Of a stretch of 64,000 nucleotides of DNA, positions 5,116 through 62,964 are shown one piece after another (the stretch's first letter is position 1; every line of letters starts with the position of its first letter). The position numbers and the translations under genes were made by a program. The notes below the pieces were generated by a model. The model saw nothing but the letters and a program-made list of their open reading frames with translations, searched no databases and was not told where the DNA came from. Origin of the DNA: Apostichopus japonicus (lineage: Eukaryota; Echinodermata; Holothuroidea; Aspidochirotida; Stichopodidae); the NCBI RefSeq assembly GCF_037975245.1, contig NC_092572.1, forward strand, positions 7,517,501 through 7,581,500, written 5' to 3'.

Positions 5116-29036
<23,921 letters not shown>

Positions 29037-33130: not shown

Positions 33131-33294
33131 TTACTGTAGAATCTCTGGACATTCTCGATCAGTAAGGCTGTTGGTGATTGAGGCGAATTGGTCTTTGTTG
33201 ATGTTCATTTCCAGAAATATCAGGGTCTCTAATGAGGGCAGTGTTACGTCTTTTATGAAGTCAATAGCACACTCTTCTCTAAACGTCATACTTT
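33131..33294 (-). pseudogene. Out-of-frame LRR-like exon remnant of NACHT-receptor gene A
   Basis: In the frame used by the paralogue this stretch reads [14 protein letters not shown], then [14 protein letters not shown], then a stop at 33133-33131, an LRR-like ending. In gene A the exon start has two extra bases compared with the paralogue at 60728, so the spliced frame stops at 33297-33295 and this segment is not translated. Confidence 0.65.
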
Positions 33295-36200
33295 TCAGTT
33301 TTACCTGTTGGAAGACAATTAAATGGAAAGACGTAAAATTACGTTATATTTTCTTGTTTAATAACCAAAAGAACAAAATTCAATAATTACCATTTATTGA
33401 GGCATATCACATTAATGGGTGTCTTTACAGTAAATTGAAATGGATTTTAGTTAAAACAAATGATCAATCAAATTACGATACCGTATAGGATTTCAGTATA
33501 TGATATTTGTTTTTACATGAATCAGGTCGTACAAAAAACGATATACAGAACTATCATTGTGTAGAGCAATGTGTTAATTGGACAAAATGTTTAGATGGGC
33601 TATCAGCCGTTTCATTTAAACGAGCTGAGGGATCATTTTTCGTCAAGCTGAATATATTATTGAACAAATATTCAAAATTAACTAATCCACATTGTGTTTT
33701 AATAAATTGAAACAGTTACTACTACTTACATGGCAATAGTTGCAAGCATCGCAGAAATCTGTTAAAGCAACTCTGTGGTGTTTCCTGTCAAGATGCTGTA
33801 TGTGAATAGTCGTATCCATACCCATTAAAGGCGTTACATTGCTCGTATATGTACCAAAGAAACCCGTTACATTGCTCATGGATTTACCAAAGATACCCGT
33901 TGCTTTGCTCATATCTTTGATAATTGTTCGCTTCTTCTCGAGATTACTCATTTCATAAATACAGTCGATCAAATTGTTCCACATTTTCTGTTCCTTCAGA
34001 AGATATTGTATAGCTTGATCTAATCTAGCATGATTCAAACCGAACATAAACTGTAATAACCGAACCGTTGAATCGTTAGCATTCTGTTGTATATATTCAT
34101 CTATCCACGCCCACTCTTTATCCCGTTGCGGCACATACTGAGCAGCTAAATATTCCTGAAAGAATTCATGACAAAACATGATTCCAGCATAGGACGAAAA
34201 AGCCAATTCTTCTAATTGACTTCCTTCGCTTCCTACCTTCTTTGAATACTTGAGCAAACCTACGGCTAAGGCAAGTTGGGTATCTTTTTCACCAAGTTTA
34301 TTGTTCCAATACCCGCGTTCACCAAGTGAAAGGCTCATTTTGTTCTCAAATGCTATTTTACCAAGTCTGTTTTCAAGTCTCTTAATATCTTTTTGAATGG
34401 ACTTCTTATTAACTTTCTGCACGTATCGGGATTCCAAACAGGTAATCACTAATCTTATTATTGTTGTCAGTTTGTTAACATTCACTTCTTTATATTTCCC
34501 TGTTGGATCTAATATTCTGCATGTGATTATATGAATAATCATAATCAGCAGAAGGGGTGTTTCAGAAAAATTCTGAAAGATTTCGTTCAACTCCATACAT
34601 TCATAAACCTTTTTTGAAAGTAGAACGGTGTTATTTTTCTGCTCTGTTTTTCCTTGCTTTATCAACTTTGTTGTTACCTCATTGTTACATCCTCCCTCTG
34701 TCACCGGCGGACTGTCGTTATTTGCTGCTTTTTCTTCAATCGTCTCTCTTTTTTTGGCATCCGATTTAGCTTGTGACTTAGAGCCTTTCATATTTGAATC
34801 GAGAGTCAAAGATAACTGGGGCATTGCTTGTGAGTTTAAGTAATATTTGCAGGTTTTCTGAATATACTCATTGACTTGAGTATTACTGAAACCATTCAAT
34901 TTTACTTTTGAATATGGTAGAGCAAATATAGCGGTCATGTGATCAAATTCACGAGACGTTACCCAAACCTTGATGTTTTTAAACTTAAAAGTGTTTATTT
35001 GATTATCGAGTAAATTTGCGACCGTCAGTTTGGAATCATTGTCACCCTCTTTTTGGAGGAGGTTGACACGCTCTTTTTTATCATTGGTAGGATTATCGGC
35101 AGATGTATTGGCACTAATTGTAGACATCGATAGCTCATCAAGCCCATCTAAGAGTACTTTATACTCAAAATTTAGAAATATTTCAGTGATATCGTCCACC
35201 GTCAAGTCGATTCCAACAGGCATCATTTTCTTGACAAGTTCGGAAAGTATCATGGAGGGAACAACCTCTTTAAGGTGAATATATATTAGTATAGGTTCAC
35301 TGGTTTGATTCCTTTTGCCAACTTTCGGATTTGTCATCTTTGATACCCAATCGCTAACCAAGTGTTGAGTGTAGGTTGTCTTCCCGTAACCTAAATCTGC
35401 TATGATGATGACCCGATTATTACTATCGTTATTAAACTCCGGTGTAGACAGATAGTCGCTATCGTGATGGCTAACGTTATCGTTCGGACTAGTTACGATG
35501 CACTGGCATGCAGTGTAAAGGGCATCTATCGATATTGGTTCACCCCATGGTAGCGGCTTGATGATACCAAATTTCTTGTACTGCCTTGTTAGAACATCCA
35601 CTAAAATATCTTTCCTCTCTAAAGAAAAACATTAAATATCAATGACTGCCAATATTGTTCAACGTAATGGTATTATTAAAAGGTATGGTATGGAAAGGTT
35701 TAGAATTGAAAATGTTTGTGTTTAGCTTATTCACACATGTTACTGAATGTGTAAACTTTTTCTAAAGTTTTCTAAATTGCGCCATAGTAAGTATATTAAA
35801 CCGAAATTTACCCCGTACTAGAAAATTGTCTTTGGTTATTACAGTAATTAGGTAGAGTAGTCGAATGTAGTCTTCTTGCTTTGGAATAATAATGTTGGAG
35901 ATAAAAAATTATCGTACCTTCAAGGGATTTTTTCTTCGGTTTTGGCTTCGTACTTGTAAGCTGTATTTCCTGATATAAGAACAGATATTGCATTTATACA
36001 AATAAATAGATACACAGAAACTAATTGTGGACAAAGACTATATGAGGTATAATAAAGATATGATGTCCTTCTTACCGTGTCTAGATCCGCATTTGTTATA
36101 CCCGTAGCTATAGGAAACAATAATACAAATTTGGTCGATTAAATTTTTGTGGCCTTGGTATTAATGTTCATTGTTAATTACAGAATTATTAATGCAGGTT

Positions 36201-38802
36201 TGTAAAATTCATTGTTCACTTCATGCCTAACTAAGGTGTTAATTAACGTTCTAATATGCGGCAATTGCAGGATAAAACATGAACGACGGTATAACGCAAG
36301 CGATGCACGAGTCCAGCAATAGCGATAAATATTAGTTCATTCGTACAACACACTAAATAAACGTCGATATTCATCTGAAAATCATACAATTTTTTGTAAA
36401 CATTTAATGATAAATAACTAACAATTTGTATAAACGGTACAAATGAGTTATGTGCTTTTCTTATAGTTAACAGTCTCAAACAACTTAAATGCGTAAGTAA
36501 AATAACAAGAATAACAGGAATAGGTTACCATACTTCTCCTTACCTCTTCTGTGATAAAAAATACAAGCAACGATGACTAGTATCACTAGGACGATAAAAA
36601 TTCCAATAACTACAAATGGCCAGGCGACGAGACCTTTAGGGCTACTCGTGGGTTCACTTGAAGGAGGTTCTTTGCATGCTTCTGGCAGACAAACGCAAGA
36701 CGGCGAAGATTTTAAATGTTGTAAATTATGTTACACAGTATTGCAATTTAACGGTGGCGTGAGGGAATGTCAATGAAGACATTTATTAAGGCTACACCGT
36801 TACTGTGCTATCGGCCACAATTGCGATGTTATCGTAAACACGTTTTTAATTTTCAGTATGAACTCCTCCCCATAGTGGTCTGTACGCTGTCGAAATTACG
36901 TTTATCCTTAGTCTATTATATCTGATAGAAGAAAGTCACAACCCAAGCTTCTTATATCAATGTTTATATAATTCAATGCTATTTGCGAATTATTTTGTCT
37001 ATATGTTTGTTTCTTCAAAGACCTGTAATTTCACTTTTGCTAAATACAAATGATTTGCCATAAATTTGGATATAATTAATTAAAAACGTGTGTTGCATTT
37101 GCATACTGCCACGGAGATATACCTAATGTGACCAACCTTAGGCCACTTAAAACATTAAGACATAACTATGCATATCCCTTCGTTATGATTGTTCTACACT
37201 GTCCTTTTGGTTTGTTCAAAATGTGCACGTAATTCATTTAAACTGTAAACGCTAAGTCGTTAGGAAGCTTGTAATATATAATTTACTTTGAAAAACCAAC
37301 CGACGTATCGTAAATGTCACGTTACGTGTCTTTATCAGCAATTCATTAATAATACCATCACGAAATTTGCAAGCCAGTATATGTCATGTTACCTGTATTT
37401 ATCCTAACAGTGCTGGAGTGAGTATCAAGAAGAGGAGCAAGCGGAAAGTCTGACGAGGAAGCGATGCATCTGAATGTAGCATCTGCTCCACAACCAGGTG
37501 TTGTGTATTGAATGGTTTTCTCAGTGTACCATCTGTCACCCATTTCTTTATGAATTTGCTCTTCTTTGGTGAAGCTCACTCCAGACTGGTTAGTTACAAT
37601 CCAATCTACTTCCATCATTGGTCTAGAGCCATTCACATAACAAGTCAAGGATCCATAGGTGGTAACGTTCAGTTGACATCCAGTACAGGTCGAACCACAG
37701 GCATCAATCAGTGGGCACGGAGGATCGGGTCGACCTGTCAGGATAAAATGTTCACACTATTTACTCAGTGTTGTTAACTACAGAGCACATTTGTTTTTCA
37801 ATTGATACACCAATATATTAATATGATTGGATTAAAAATGTTACAAATACACAGCTAAATAAATATATGTATAGGAAAAAGATGTGTTTATTACTGTAAA
37901 TAAAAAGCGCCGTGTTTGAGATATCTTGTTCAAAGTTGTCAAAGTAAGCTGTCAGCGTATAGCTGCTTTCATGTTGTAACTGGCTATTAATGATTCTAAG
38001 AGATCCATTGATGGTTAACTCAAATTCCCCTTTCTGGTATTCGCTGCCACCTGATATGCCATCTACGAGTGATAACAAAGGAGCGGTGCTCGTTGTTAAT
38101 CCTTTGTACCAATACAAGTCGTAGTTGGAACCTAGAACATGACATGGAAGCTCAAACGACTTTCCCATTTCTGCAGAACACTTGGGCTGACACTGAACAC
38201 TGCTTGCGTCTGCAAGAAAACATAATATTTCATAATCCTTTATTCACATATTAACGGAATTAGACTCGGTAGTTTTCAAACAAGAAGTTGATATATGCTA
38301 ATTCAATAGTATCTTATAGGATGCAAGTGACAGTGAAGATAGATTTAAACAAACGTTAATATGTTACTTATTAAAACATGTTCTTTATTTTTGTTTTTGC
38401 ATTTGTCTATTTATACATCTTATAATTTGTTCAGACTATTTTCCGATTATGTATTGAATAGCTGTCGTCGTTTAAAGACAAGCATCGATTGTCGAGAAGT
38501 CGTCGAGATACACGTTTTTAGAAATATTACTAATCACAACGAGGAGATTTTTCAGACTGGGGATTGAGTTTATATTCACTAGCCTCTTGCCCTCCTACTA
38601 AAGTTCGGGAACATTGTTCTTTTTTGTTCCTAATTTGAAATCTTCTGCACGCTTCTGATTAGAGATTATTAGCCATCCAGTCATTAGTTTGAGATACATG
38701 ATAACTAAGAAATATTTATTTCGTATTTGACTTACCTCCAACATATATAAATGACATTATTAGAACTAAGACCGCAACGGTCTGCTGTATCAAGTCCACC
38801 AT
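33295..38802 (-). CDS. Membrane NLR: signal peptide, two Ig domains, TM, NACHT (cassette A), 948 aa
   Basis: Eight exons: 38802-38736 (signal peptide, [13 protein letters not shown]), 38209-37895 (Ig 1), 37734-37393 (Ig 2), 36681-36544 (Pro/Ser linker and TM helix about 261-284, then HRR), 36107-36076, 35969-35918 (Lys-rich, TKPKPKKKS), 35618-33730 (NACHT), 33306-33295. All introns are GT-AG; phases are 1,1,1,1,0,1,0 and the 2847 nt form one frame. NACHT evidence: Walker [10 protein letters not shown] (Lys about 395; first Gly is Ala), Walker [10 protein letters not shown] (about 470-478), sensor-like VWVTSRE. Ig 2 has normal Cys-Trp-Cys. Ig 1 has Cys and Trp (LPCHVLG, LYWYKG) but SYTLTAYF where the second Cys is expected. 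It converges on the pseudokinase gene. Likely a surface receptor with a cytoplasmic NTPase; the role is inferred. The LRR-like tail is lost by frameshift. The weakest point is the linkage through the two small exons. Confidence 0.78.
33730..35618 (-). CDS. NACHT exon of the membrane NLR (cassette A)
   Basis: One large exon of 630 codons, typical of NLR genes. It begins with a short leader and [20 protein letters not shown], followed by the NACHT NTPase and the helical region after it (FQEYLAAQY, a motif often seen C-terminal to NACHT). About 90% identical by eye to the paralogous exon 62964-61142. It differs by lacking about 10 residues near 34620 and by carrying a 33-bp in-frame triplication near its 3' end. 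Confidence 0.93.
33814..33912 (-). repeat. In-frame 33-bp x 3 coding minisatellite
   Basis: Three 33-bp units (33912-33880, 33879-33847, 33846-33814) each encode a variant of [11 protein letters not shown]. The paralogue has only KISKGT at this place, so the expansion is specific to copy A. Confidence 0.85.
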
Positions 38803-60554: not shown

Positions 60555-62964
60555 TTACATTAGAATTTCTGGACATTTTCGATTAGTAAGGCTGGTGATG
60601 ATTGATACGAATTGGTCTTCGTTGATGTTCATTTCCAGAAATTGCAGGGTCTCTAATGAGGGCAGTGTTACGTCTTTGATGAAGTCAATAGCACACTCTT
60701 CTCTAAATGTCATTCTTTTTACGTTTACCTGTTGGAGTACAATTACGTTATATTTCCATGTTGAATAACCCAAAGAACAAAATTCAATACCTAACACTTA
60801 TTGAGGCATATCACAATATTGGGTGTGTTTAGTACATCAAAATGGAGTTTAGTTAAAACAAATGATCAATCAAATCATGATACCGTATAGGATTTCAGGA
60901 TATTTTATTTGTTTGTACATGAATCAGGTCGTATATAAAAATATAAAAAACGATATACAGAACTATTAATGTGTAGAGCAATATGCTAATTGGATAACAT
61001 GTTTAGGTGGGCTATCAGCCGGTTCATTGAACCAACTTATCAATCATTTTTTTTCACAAAATCACAAGTTGAACATAAATATTGGAAAATTAAATAAGCA
61101 ACATTATTTTAATATAAATTGAAACAGTTTCCACTACTTACATCACATGAATTGCAAACATCGCAGAAATCTGTTAAAGCGACTCTGTGGTGTTTCCTGT
61201 CAAGATGCTGTATGTGAATCGTTCCTTTGCTTATTTTGGTGATAATTTCCTGCTTCTTCTCTAGATTACTTATTTCATAAATACAGTCGATCAAATTGTC
61301 CCACATTTGTTGTTCCTTGAGAGATTGTACTGCTTTATCTAATCTAGCATGATTCATGCCGAACATAAACTGCAATAATCTAACCGTTGCATCGTCAGTA
61401 CTATTTTTTATGAGTTCATCTATCCACGCCCATTCTTTAACCCTCTTTGGCACATACTGAGCAGCTAAAAATTCCTGAAAGAATTCATGATAAAACATGA
61501 TTCCAGCATAGGACGAAAAAGCCAGTTCTTCTAATTGACTTCCTCCGCCTCCTACTTTCTTTGAATACTTGAGCAAACCTACGGCTACGGCAAGTTGGGT
61601 ATCTTTTTCACCAAGTTCATTGTTCCAATACTCGCGTTCACCAAGTGACAGGCTCATTTTGTTCTCAAATGCTATTTTACCAAGGCTGTCTTCAAGACTC
61701 TTAATATCTTTTTGAATGGACATTTTATCAACTTTCTGCACGTATCGGGATTCCAAACAGGTAATCACTAATCGTATTATTGTTGTCAGTTTGTTAACAT
61801 TCATTTCTTTATATTTCCCTGTTGGCTCTAACATTCTGCATGTGATTATATGAATAATCATAATCAGCAGAAGGGGTGTTTCAGAAAAATTCTGAACAAT
61901 TTCGTTTAATTCCATACATTCATAAACCCTTTTTGAAAGCATTTCTAAAGTATCACAAGCTACGTTTCGTGGAACGGTGTTATCTTTCTGCTCTGATTTT
62001 CCTTGCTTTATCAACTTTGTTGTTACCTCATTGTTACATCCTCCCTCTGTCACCAGCAGACTGTCGTTATTTGTCGTTTTTTCTTCAATCGTCTCATGTT
62101 TTTTGGCATCCGATTTAGCTTGTGACTTAGGGTTGCTCATATTTGAATCGAGGATCAAAGATAACTGGGGTATTGCTTGTGAGTTAAAGTAATATTTGCA
62201 GGTTTTCTGAATATACTCATTGACTTGATTATTACTGAAACCATTCAATTTTACTTTTGAATATGGTAGAGCAAATGAAGTTTTCATGTCATCAAATTCA
62301 CGAGACGTTACCCAAACCTTAATATTTTTAAACTTAGTGTTTATTGTATTTTCGAGTAAATTTGCGACCGTCAGATTAGCATAGTTTTCAGCCCCCTCTT
62401 GGAAGAGGTTGACAAGCTCTTCTTTATCATTGGTAGGATTCTCTGCAGATGTATTGGCACTAATCGTAGACATCGATAGCTCATCAAGCCCATCCAAGAG
62501 TACTTGAAACTCAAAATTTTGAAATATTTCAATAATATCGTCCACCGTCAAGTCGATTCCAACAGGCATCATTTTCTTGACAAGTTCGGAAAGTATCATG
62601 GAAGGAACAACCTCTTTCAGGTGAATATATATTAGTATAGGTTCACTGGTTTGATTCTTTTTACCAACTTTCGGATTTGTCATCTTTGATACCCAATCGC
62701 TAACCAAGTGTTGAGTGAAGGTTGTCTTCCCGTAACCTAAATCTGCTGTAACGATGACCCGATTAGTACTTTCGTTATTAAACTCCGGTGTAGACAGAAA
62801 GTCGCTATCGCGATGACTGACGTCACCTTTCGCGTTAGTGACGATGCATCGGCACGTAGTGTAAAAGGCTTGTATCGGTATTGGTTCACCCCATGGTAGC
62901 GGCTTGATGAAGCCAAATTTCTCGTACTGCTTTATTAGAACATCCACCAATTTTTTTTTCCTCT
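60555..62964 (-). CDS. NACHT gene, cassette B (last two exons visible)
   Basis: Exon 62964-61142 (607 complete codons plus a split codon) and exon 60728-60555 (58 codons with stop TAA). The join is GT-AG, phase 0, in frame. The first encodes a NACHT NTPase with Walker [10 protein letters not shown], Walker [10 protein letters not shown] and [10 protein letters not shown], then FQEFLAAQY. The second adds an LRR-like end (LPSLETLQFLEMNI). The exon starts in phase 1 after an acceptor (ttttaag), exactly like gene A, so upstream exons are expected, presumably Ig-TM. Homology to gene A stops at about 63035 and a tandem repeat follows, so the 5' part is beyond the window or lost. No stop or frameshift is seen. 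Confidence 0.88.

Follow-up and report, generated by a model that had tools for sequence, protein, structure and literature searches.

A predicted membrane receptor with immunoglobulin domains outside and a NACHT region inside the cell, and its tandem gene family, in Apostichopus japonicus

The window analyzed here is a stretch of 64,000 nucleotides of the genome of the holothurian Apostichopus japonicus (bases 7,517,501–7,581,500 of contig NC_092572.1, hereafter C12). Its minus strand carries exons for a signal peptide, two immunoglobulin (Ig) domains and a transmembrane (TM) segment upstream of a large exon for a NACHT region, all of which are present in the order described by the initial annotation of this DNA. 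These are assembled into an eight-exon model, running from window position 38802 to 33131, that gives a single frame of 1,002 codons (1,002 amino acids) plus a stop. The encoded protein consists, in order, of a signal peptide, a V-set Ig domain, a second Ig domain, a stalk with the TM segment, the products of two microexons ending in a basic linker, the NACHT region and a short tail. The genome searched comprises 671,581,487 bases on 35 contigs, and the tandem copies found in it are named G1 (the window gene) to G13. The exons of G1, and those exons of its neighbor G2 that fall within the window, are as follows.

38736–38802, minus strand: exon 1, start codon and signal peptide (22 residues); donor GTAAGT, phase 1; counterparts in G3, G7, G8 and G9
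37895–38209, minus strand: exon 2, first Ig domain (Ig1; Pfam V-set), type A; phase 1 to 1; Ig1 exon in 13 of 13 tandem copies including G1
37393–37734, minus strand: exon 3, second Ig domain (Ig2); phase 1 to 1; weak Pfam C2-set_2/C1-set match alone; 82–92% identity to 10 other aligned copies
36544–36681, minus strand: exon 4, stalk and single predicted TM helix, then HRR; phase 1 to 1; hydropathy 3.65; found in 12 of 12 other copies
36076–36107, minus strand: exon 5, putative cytoplasmic microexon (11-residue reading across the junction); phase 1 to 0
35918–35969, minus strand: exon 6, basic linker microexon (17 residues); phase 0 to 1
33730–35618, minus strand: exon 7, NACHT NTPase region; Pfam NACHT 25.2–25.3 bits; alignment of 10 copies
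33131–33304, minus strand: exon 8, short C-terminal exon with a TAA at its end; all 12 exon-8 copies retrieved have the stop; no Pfam match
61142–62964, minus strand: NACHT exon of the neighboring tandem copy G2, the Ig and TM exons of which lie outside the window at C12:7.593–7.599 Mb
60555–60728, minus strand: last exon of G2

All seven introns of G1 have GT..AG ends, and the phases 1,1,1,1,0,1,0 are reproduced throughout. The two exons that the initial annotation had placed at 38209–37895 and 35618–33730 are exact, while its coding length of 2847 nt has to be replaced by 2,835 nt through the end of the NACHT exon, or 3,009 nt with the last exon included. Its left edge at 33295 does fall in the last exon but lies about 10 nt inside it, as this exon extends to the TAA at 33131. 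Pseudogene status was considered for G1 and rejected, as the frame has no internal stop. A bacterial promoter scan of the start region was uninformative for an animal gene. Overlap of the conserved TAA with a donor-like site (CA/GTAAGA, window 33131–33136) makes the C-terminal end of G1 uncertain, and splicing at this site could possibly give an alternative C-terminus. Downstream of exon 8, the DNA of G1 and G2 is similar in blocks of 67–93% identity. The likeness extends to all three frames and so gives no clear indication of a further coding exon, LRR profiles not having been applied to this DNA.

The domain assignments were examined with Pfam profiles. Exon 2 matches the V-set profile at 31.8 bits (cut-off 26). 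Exon 3 taken alone gives 15 bits with C2-set_2, under the cut-off of 21, and is Ig-like but weak; across the copies, with a threshold of E ≤ 1, all 11 aligned sequences match C1-set (best E 8e-4) and 10 of the 11 match C2-set_2 (best 3.3e-4). The NACHT alignment (A1) holds 10 of the 13 copies, without G6, G11 and G12 and with G8 kept, and a second alignment (A2) holds 11 of the 13, without G6 and G11. A NACHT match at E ≤ 0.1 is obtained for 10 of 10 aligned copies, G1 and G2 included (best 1.8e-8). The Walker A and Walker B residues are invariant in these 10 copies, and the sensor-like Arg is kept in nine. In G1 we take DLGYGKTT to be the Walker A motif, LLDGLDE to be Walker B, TSRE to be sensor-like and a further stretch of 12 residues to be winged-helix-like. 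No match to LRR, CARD or PYD was obtained at E ≤ 1 in the Pfam scan of the open reading frames holding exons 2, 3, 4, 7 and 8, and Pfam found no LRR in exon 8 or the NACHT exon, the DNA past the stop having had no profile scan. The initial annotation called the product an NLR; this label fits the NACHT region and is otherwise a loose one, with no LRR, CARD or PYD matched.

The predicted topology follows from features on either side of the TM segment. The first 23 residues of G1 are signal-like, and a single strong hydrophobic segment lies between the Ig and NACHT parts (best 19-residue mean 3.65, within residues 254–291; TM at 259–284), followed C-terminally by HRR and KPKPKKK. Basic residues after a TM segment mark the cytosolic side under the positive-inside rule. 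Because of the signal segment, the single strong TM and the basic residues of HRR and the linker after it, the NACHT region is predicted to lie in the cytosol and the Ig domains outside. The 236-residue outer part holds 11 Cys, against 14 in the 718-residue inner part. A segment of the NACHT region at residues 666–689 is marginally hydrophobic (mean 1.68, with a 17-residue sequence) and is possibly a buried NACHT helix.

The case for a single gene rests largely on the other copies. Genome searches with exon 2, exon 3 and exon 7 each recover the same 13 tandem copies, G1 included, over about 0.6 Mb (C12:7.55–8.15 Mb), and an additional, more distant copy lies at C12:13.23 Mb. All 13 tandem copies are on the minus strand in the order Ig1, Ig2, NACHT. 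Among the 12 other than G1, exons 3, 4, 5 and 6 could be located in every copy, exon 7 in full in 11 and exon 8 in 11, the 3' end of G12 having been incompletely retrieved. Forty-eight of the 86 exon copies in these genes differ in length from their G1 counterparts, 45 of them by a multiple of three; the frame-breaking differences are in exon 5 of G6, exon 2 of G8 and exon 3 of G11. For microexons 5 and 6 together, 19 of 20 length differences are multiples of three, including all eight in exon 6. The binomial probability of this result is 1.2e-8 if the copies were independent, a value that is merely indicative because they share ancestry. With exon 2 excluded, AG acceptors are found at 68 of 70 positions and GT donors at 62 of 63 in the other copies, with a slight bias toward such ends from placing exons with queries that included AG and GT. 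The initial annotation held chance agreement across the junctions to be unlikely, and this judgment is borne out; a chance splicing model is rejected, given the multiples of three and the mostly kept splice sites. Conserved splice sites and frame in the linker microexons would be senseless were the TM not joined to the NACHT region. The comparative evidence from the 13 tandem copies thus supports the reading of exons 1–8 as one gene for a signal peptide-Ig-Ig-TM-NACHT protein.

Ig and NACHT matches were also paired across the genome. This count used 149 of 149 Ig1 rows, 70 of 71 Ig2 rows (the second piece of G11 omitted), 106 of 106 Pfam NACHT rows and 54 of 94 exon-7 search rows, the 40 omitted being second pieces of NACHT exons or relics with stops. 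Among the matches listed, at least 52 of the 160 NACHT rows are preceded within 12 kb by an Ig row on their own strand, four are followed by one on that strand and none has one on the opposite strand. The upstream pairs include 12 in the C12 array and 13 on other contigs (C16 10, C21 2, C7 1). The row lists are tuned to this family, and the pair counts are lower bounds.

Some copies in the array look broken: G6 has two lost acceptors and one stop, G8 has a 2-nt loss in Ig1, and G11 has 13 stops in exon 7 and lacks 1 nt in exon 3. In G12 the donor of exon 4 is GC. The DNA separating the tandem copies also contains NACHT relics interrupted by several stops, at C12:7641534, 7658008, 7714214, 7799430 and 8118733. 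The relics suggest birth and death of copies in the array.

Comparison of the copies exon by exon shows different histories for the outer and inner parts. The Ig1 exons fall into type A (G1, G3, G6, G7, G8 and G9), type B (G2, G5, G10 and G11) and type C (G4, G12 and G13). The nearest neighbor is of the same Ig1 type in 13 of 13 cases for Ig1 itself, in 7 of 13 for exon 3, 5 of 13 for exon 4, 5 of 12 for exon 7 and 3 of 12 for exon 8 (13 copies for exons 2–4 and 12 for exons 7–8, broken copies included). In a permutation test on 9–10 copies, Ig1 type shows no link with exons 4, 7 and 8 (p 0.58, 0.62 and 0.94) and a slight one with exon 3 (p 0.032). In the exon-7 tree, G3 pairs with G5 and G1 with G2, each with support 1.000, despite their different Ig1 types. 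The NACHT exons of G3 and G5 are 97.9% identical and their Ig1 exons 55.6%; seven successive 250-base windows (about 1.7 kb) are 98–100% identical, against 88–93% in the three before and 78–95% in the five after, an apparently recent gene-conversion-like tract. As judged from these comparisons, the three Ig1 exon types have a history different from that of the TM and NACHT exons, a pattern consistent with gene conversion that acts on the inner part while the genes retain their different V-set exons. It is conceivable, and is put forward here tentatively at slightly less than even odds, that the array serves to diversify membrane NLR-like receptors in the germline: recombination and gene conversion would join V-set exons of at least three deeply split types to a common Ig2-TM-NACHT part, exchanging recognition domains and leaving the signaling end unchanged. 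No paper on the C12 array or its mosaic structure, or on an expansion of NACHT genes in holothurians, was found in the open-license literature, most subscription papers lying outside the search.

Selection was estimated as pooled ratios of nonsynonymous to synonymous substitution (dN/dS) in 10 copies (9 for exons 7 and 8), with the broken copies G6, G8 and G11 omitted, exons 7–8 of G12 incomplete and no significance test. The pooled ratio is below 1 in six of the seven exons measured: 0.33 for Ig1, 0.38 for Ig2, 0.56 for the TM exon, 0.22 for exon 6, 0.52 for the NACHT exon and 0.42 for the last exon. No positive selection on the Ig1 V domain is seen on average, with within-type ratios of 0.57, 0.47 and 0.36, which are averages and not site-by-site values.

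The initial annotation implied that an Ig-TM-NACHT protein would be novel. This does not hold, as AjNLRC4 (MN607598), an Ig-Ig-TM-NACHT protein of the coelomocyte membrane with Ig outside and NACHT inside, was published from the same species in 2021, according to the accessible part of that report (PMC8699970). The architecture is already known in A. japonicus, and G1 is a probable paralogue of the AjNLRC4 kind on another chromosome. The accessible text also describes binding of microbes by the Ig part and lowered phagocytosis after knock-down (PMC8699970), and a caspase and MLKL route is described in the accessible part of another paper (PMC11932488). As portrayed there, AjNLRC4 resembles G1 in having two Ig domains, a TM and then NACHT, with no LRR or CARD given; it differs in its longer outer part (TM at 483–503, against 259–284 in G1) and in a second TM claimed after NACHT, where G1 has only the marginal segment at residues 666–689. 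The two also differ in location, AjNLRC4 being on C16: the primers for its outer part (EX; PMC8699970, Table 1) each have a single site when up to two mismatches are allowed; both sites contain one mismatch, and they lie 1.8 kb from each other at C16:4497304–4499141. A NACHT match lies about 2.3 kb beyond these sites on the same strand as the Ig gene. Between AjNLRC4 and Ig1 of G1 there is a weak likeness (E = 3e-7 over 34 residues in a single pairwise comparison).

A second protein of this species, AjNLR-new (PIK48001.1), likewise combines Ig, TM and NACHT and is, in the accessible part of its report, 1,197 amino acids long with a topology opposite to that predicted for G1; its authors mention several such genes, and it was compared with the C12 array by description (PMC13133943). 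The second TMs predicted for AjNLRC4 and AjNLR-new may be the same buried NACHT helix that is proposed for G1. Classical NLRs (NLRC4, NLRP) share with G1 a NACHT NTPase with Walker A and B motifs, and differ in being cytosolic, with an N-terminal effector domain and a C-terminal LRR in place of the N-terminal Ig-Ig-TM of G1. A winged-helix-like FxHxxFQExxAA motif is also common to them and G1. G1 is not a classical NLR, because an LRR was looked for with Pfam in exon 8 and the NACHT exon and not found; nor is it TM-free, as its predicted signal peptide and TM exons share one frame with the NACHT exon.

Taken together, the locus is read as a single gene that encodes an AjNLRC4-like type I membrane receptor and belongs to an array of at least 13 tandem copies, and this reading, with its proposed mechanism, is given a probability of about 0.7. 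The signal peptide would send the two Ig domains outside the cell, and the TM helix with its following basic residues would place the NACHT part in the cytosol. If the Ig part behaves as in AjNLRC4, binding of a ligand or microbe would cause the receptor to cluster and be taken up. The NACHT part, presumably ATP-dependent given its invariant Walker A and B motifs, would then oligomerize and, by analogy, signal to phagocytosis and/or caspase. Gene conversion may keep the TM-NACHT part alike while distinct V-set exons persist, giving a germline recognition repertoire on a shared signaling part. The genes likely function as germline-diversified phagocyte surface receptors.

Several observations weigh against this reading. 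The NACHT score of G1 lies just below the Pfam cut-off of 26.7 bits (that of G2, at 28.7, is above it), and no solved relatives in the PDB were found by sequence for the single NACHT exon or for Ig2, the NACHT profile giving one chance-level row (E 0.67). The N-glycosylation sequons, 4 outer and 11 inner, have a similar density in the two parts and are no help for topology. Exon 1 was recognized in only four of the 12 other copies (G3, G7, G8 and G9) and not in the other eight. Among the matches listed, an upstream Ig row is lacking for 108 of the 160 NACHT rows, as is a downstream NACHT row for 106 of the 149 Ig1 rows and 30 of the 70 Ig2 rows; because the lists are tuned to this family, these unpaired rows cannot mean true absence. 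Exon 5, with a pooled dN/dS of 2.0 on about 10 codons, shows no sign of purifying selection, and silent sites are near saturation between Ig1 type A and types B or C, so that the pooled Ig1 ratio is a rough value. The signaling step is borrowed from AjNLRC4, an apparently distant relative. Finally, the published primers for the inner part (IN) of AjNLRC4 match exactly at C14:1474164 and C14:1477174, about 3 kb apart, with no other site at two mismatches or fewer. The exons near the forward IN primer encode a ZZ-type zinc domain and a proline-rich stretch, and we take them to resemble p62/SQSTM1. The discrepancy may reflect a table error or a wrong fragment in the published pull-down.

The same exons might be explained by a pair of neighboring genes that are joined on paper only, one for an Ig-TM surface protein and the other a NACHT gene transcribed from its own promoter. 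An internal start is thinkable in seven of the 11 NACHT exons examined, where a Met occurs within the first 10 codons, before Walker A, and read-through of the exon-4 donor would give a short tail and a stop, making an Ig-TM short form possible. In G1 and the three others, by contrast, the first Met comes after Walker A (in G1, Met 94 against GKT at 78), and a start inside exon 7 of G1 would therefore lose the ATP-binding loop. The NACHT frame of G1 is open only from 13 nt upstream of the exon-7 acceptor, and in 9 of 9 other copies tested (of the 12) the first complete codon of exon 7 has an in-frame stop 6–102 nt ahead of it and no intervening ATG. These features, the linker microexons that retain splice sites and frame in nearly all copies, and the excess of same-strand upstream pairs noted above make a start of the G1 NACHT exon from its own promoter unlikely and the two-gene account as a whole barely credible.

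Two further alternatives accept a single gene and differ in what they make of its product. One inverts the topology, with Ig inside and NACHT outside, as is reported for the 1,197-residue Ig/TM/NACHT protein of the same species in the part of that paper available (PMC13133943). In G1 the Ig domains come after a signal-like segment, and the basic residues that follow the TM predict a cytosolic NACHT; an ATP-dependent NACHT region is also hard to explain outside the cell, and the extra TMs predicted in proteins of this sort may correspond to the signal peptide and to a hydrophobic helix of the NACHT region. An inverted arrangement is accordingly considered very unlikely. The other keeps the layout and treats the NACHT part not as an ATP-driven signaling switch but as a decoy or a cytoskeletal or scaffold anchor. 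The accessible parts of the three reports have AjNLRC4 and AjNLR-new acting via actin, Fidgetin and phagocytosis and assign the contact between AjNLRC4 and the caspase to the Ig part instead of NACHT (PMC8699970, PMC13133943, PMC11932488), all of which would suit an anchor. The invariance of Walker A and B, the retention of the sensor-like Arg and the dN/dS of the NACHT exon are as expected if ATP binding matters, and an anchor or decoy role is regarded as unlikely, with perhaps one chance in several of being correct. The type I signaling receptor is preferred to all three alternatives.

Other features were noted elsewhere in the window. At 5698–6899 on the plus strand, two open stretches are Ig-like by eye (Cys/Trp pattern), with no Pfam match at E 0.01, and are possibly another Ig gene. 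A run of open reading frames on the minus strand at 14594–19550, one with C2H2 zinc fingers, gives the impression of a transposon-derived gene. The region at 20737–23350 is a tandem array of 19 copies of a 138-bp unit with 95% match and lies in the most G+C-rich part of the window.

These results support, from DNA alone and with many copies serving as replicates, the view that cell-surface receptors can be constructed from NACHT proteins in animals. They likewise support the view that in A. japonicus the Ig-TM-NACHT arrangement belongs to a tandem gene family and not to a single odd gene. The C12 array provides a frame for checking the published topology and interaction claims on AjNLRC4 and AjNLR-new, among which the actin pull-down with the AjNLRC4-IN fragment warrants care. 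The different histories of the outer V-set and inner NACHT exons make it possible to test whether immune receptors are diversified in modular fashion in the germline of an animal that lacks antibodies.

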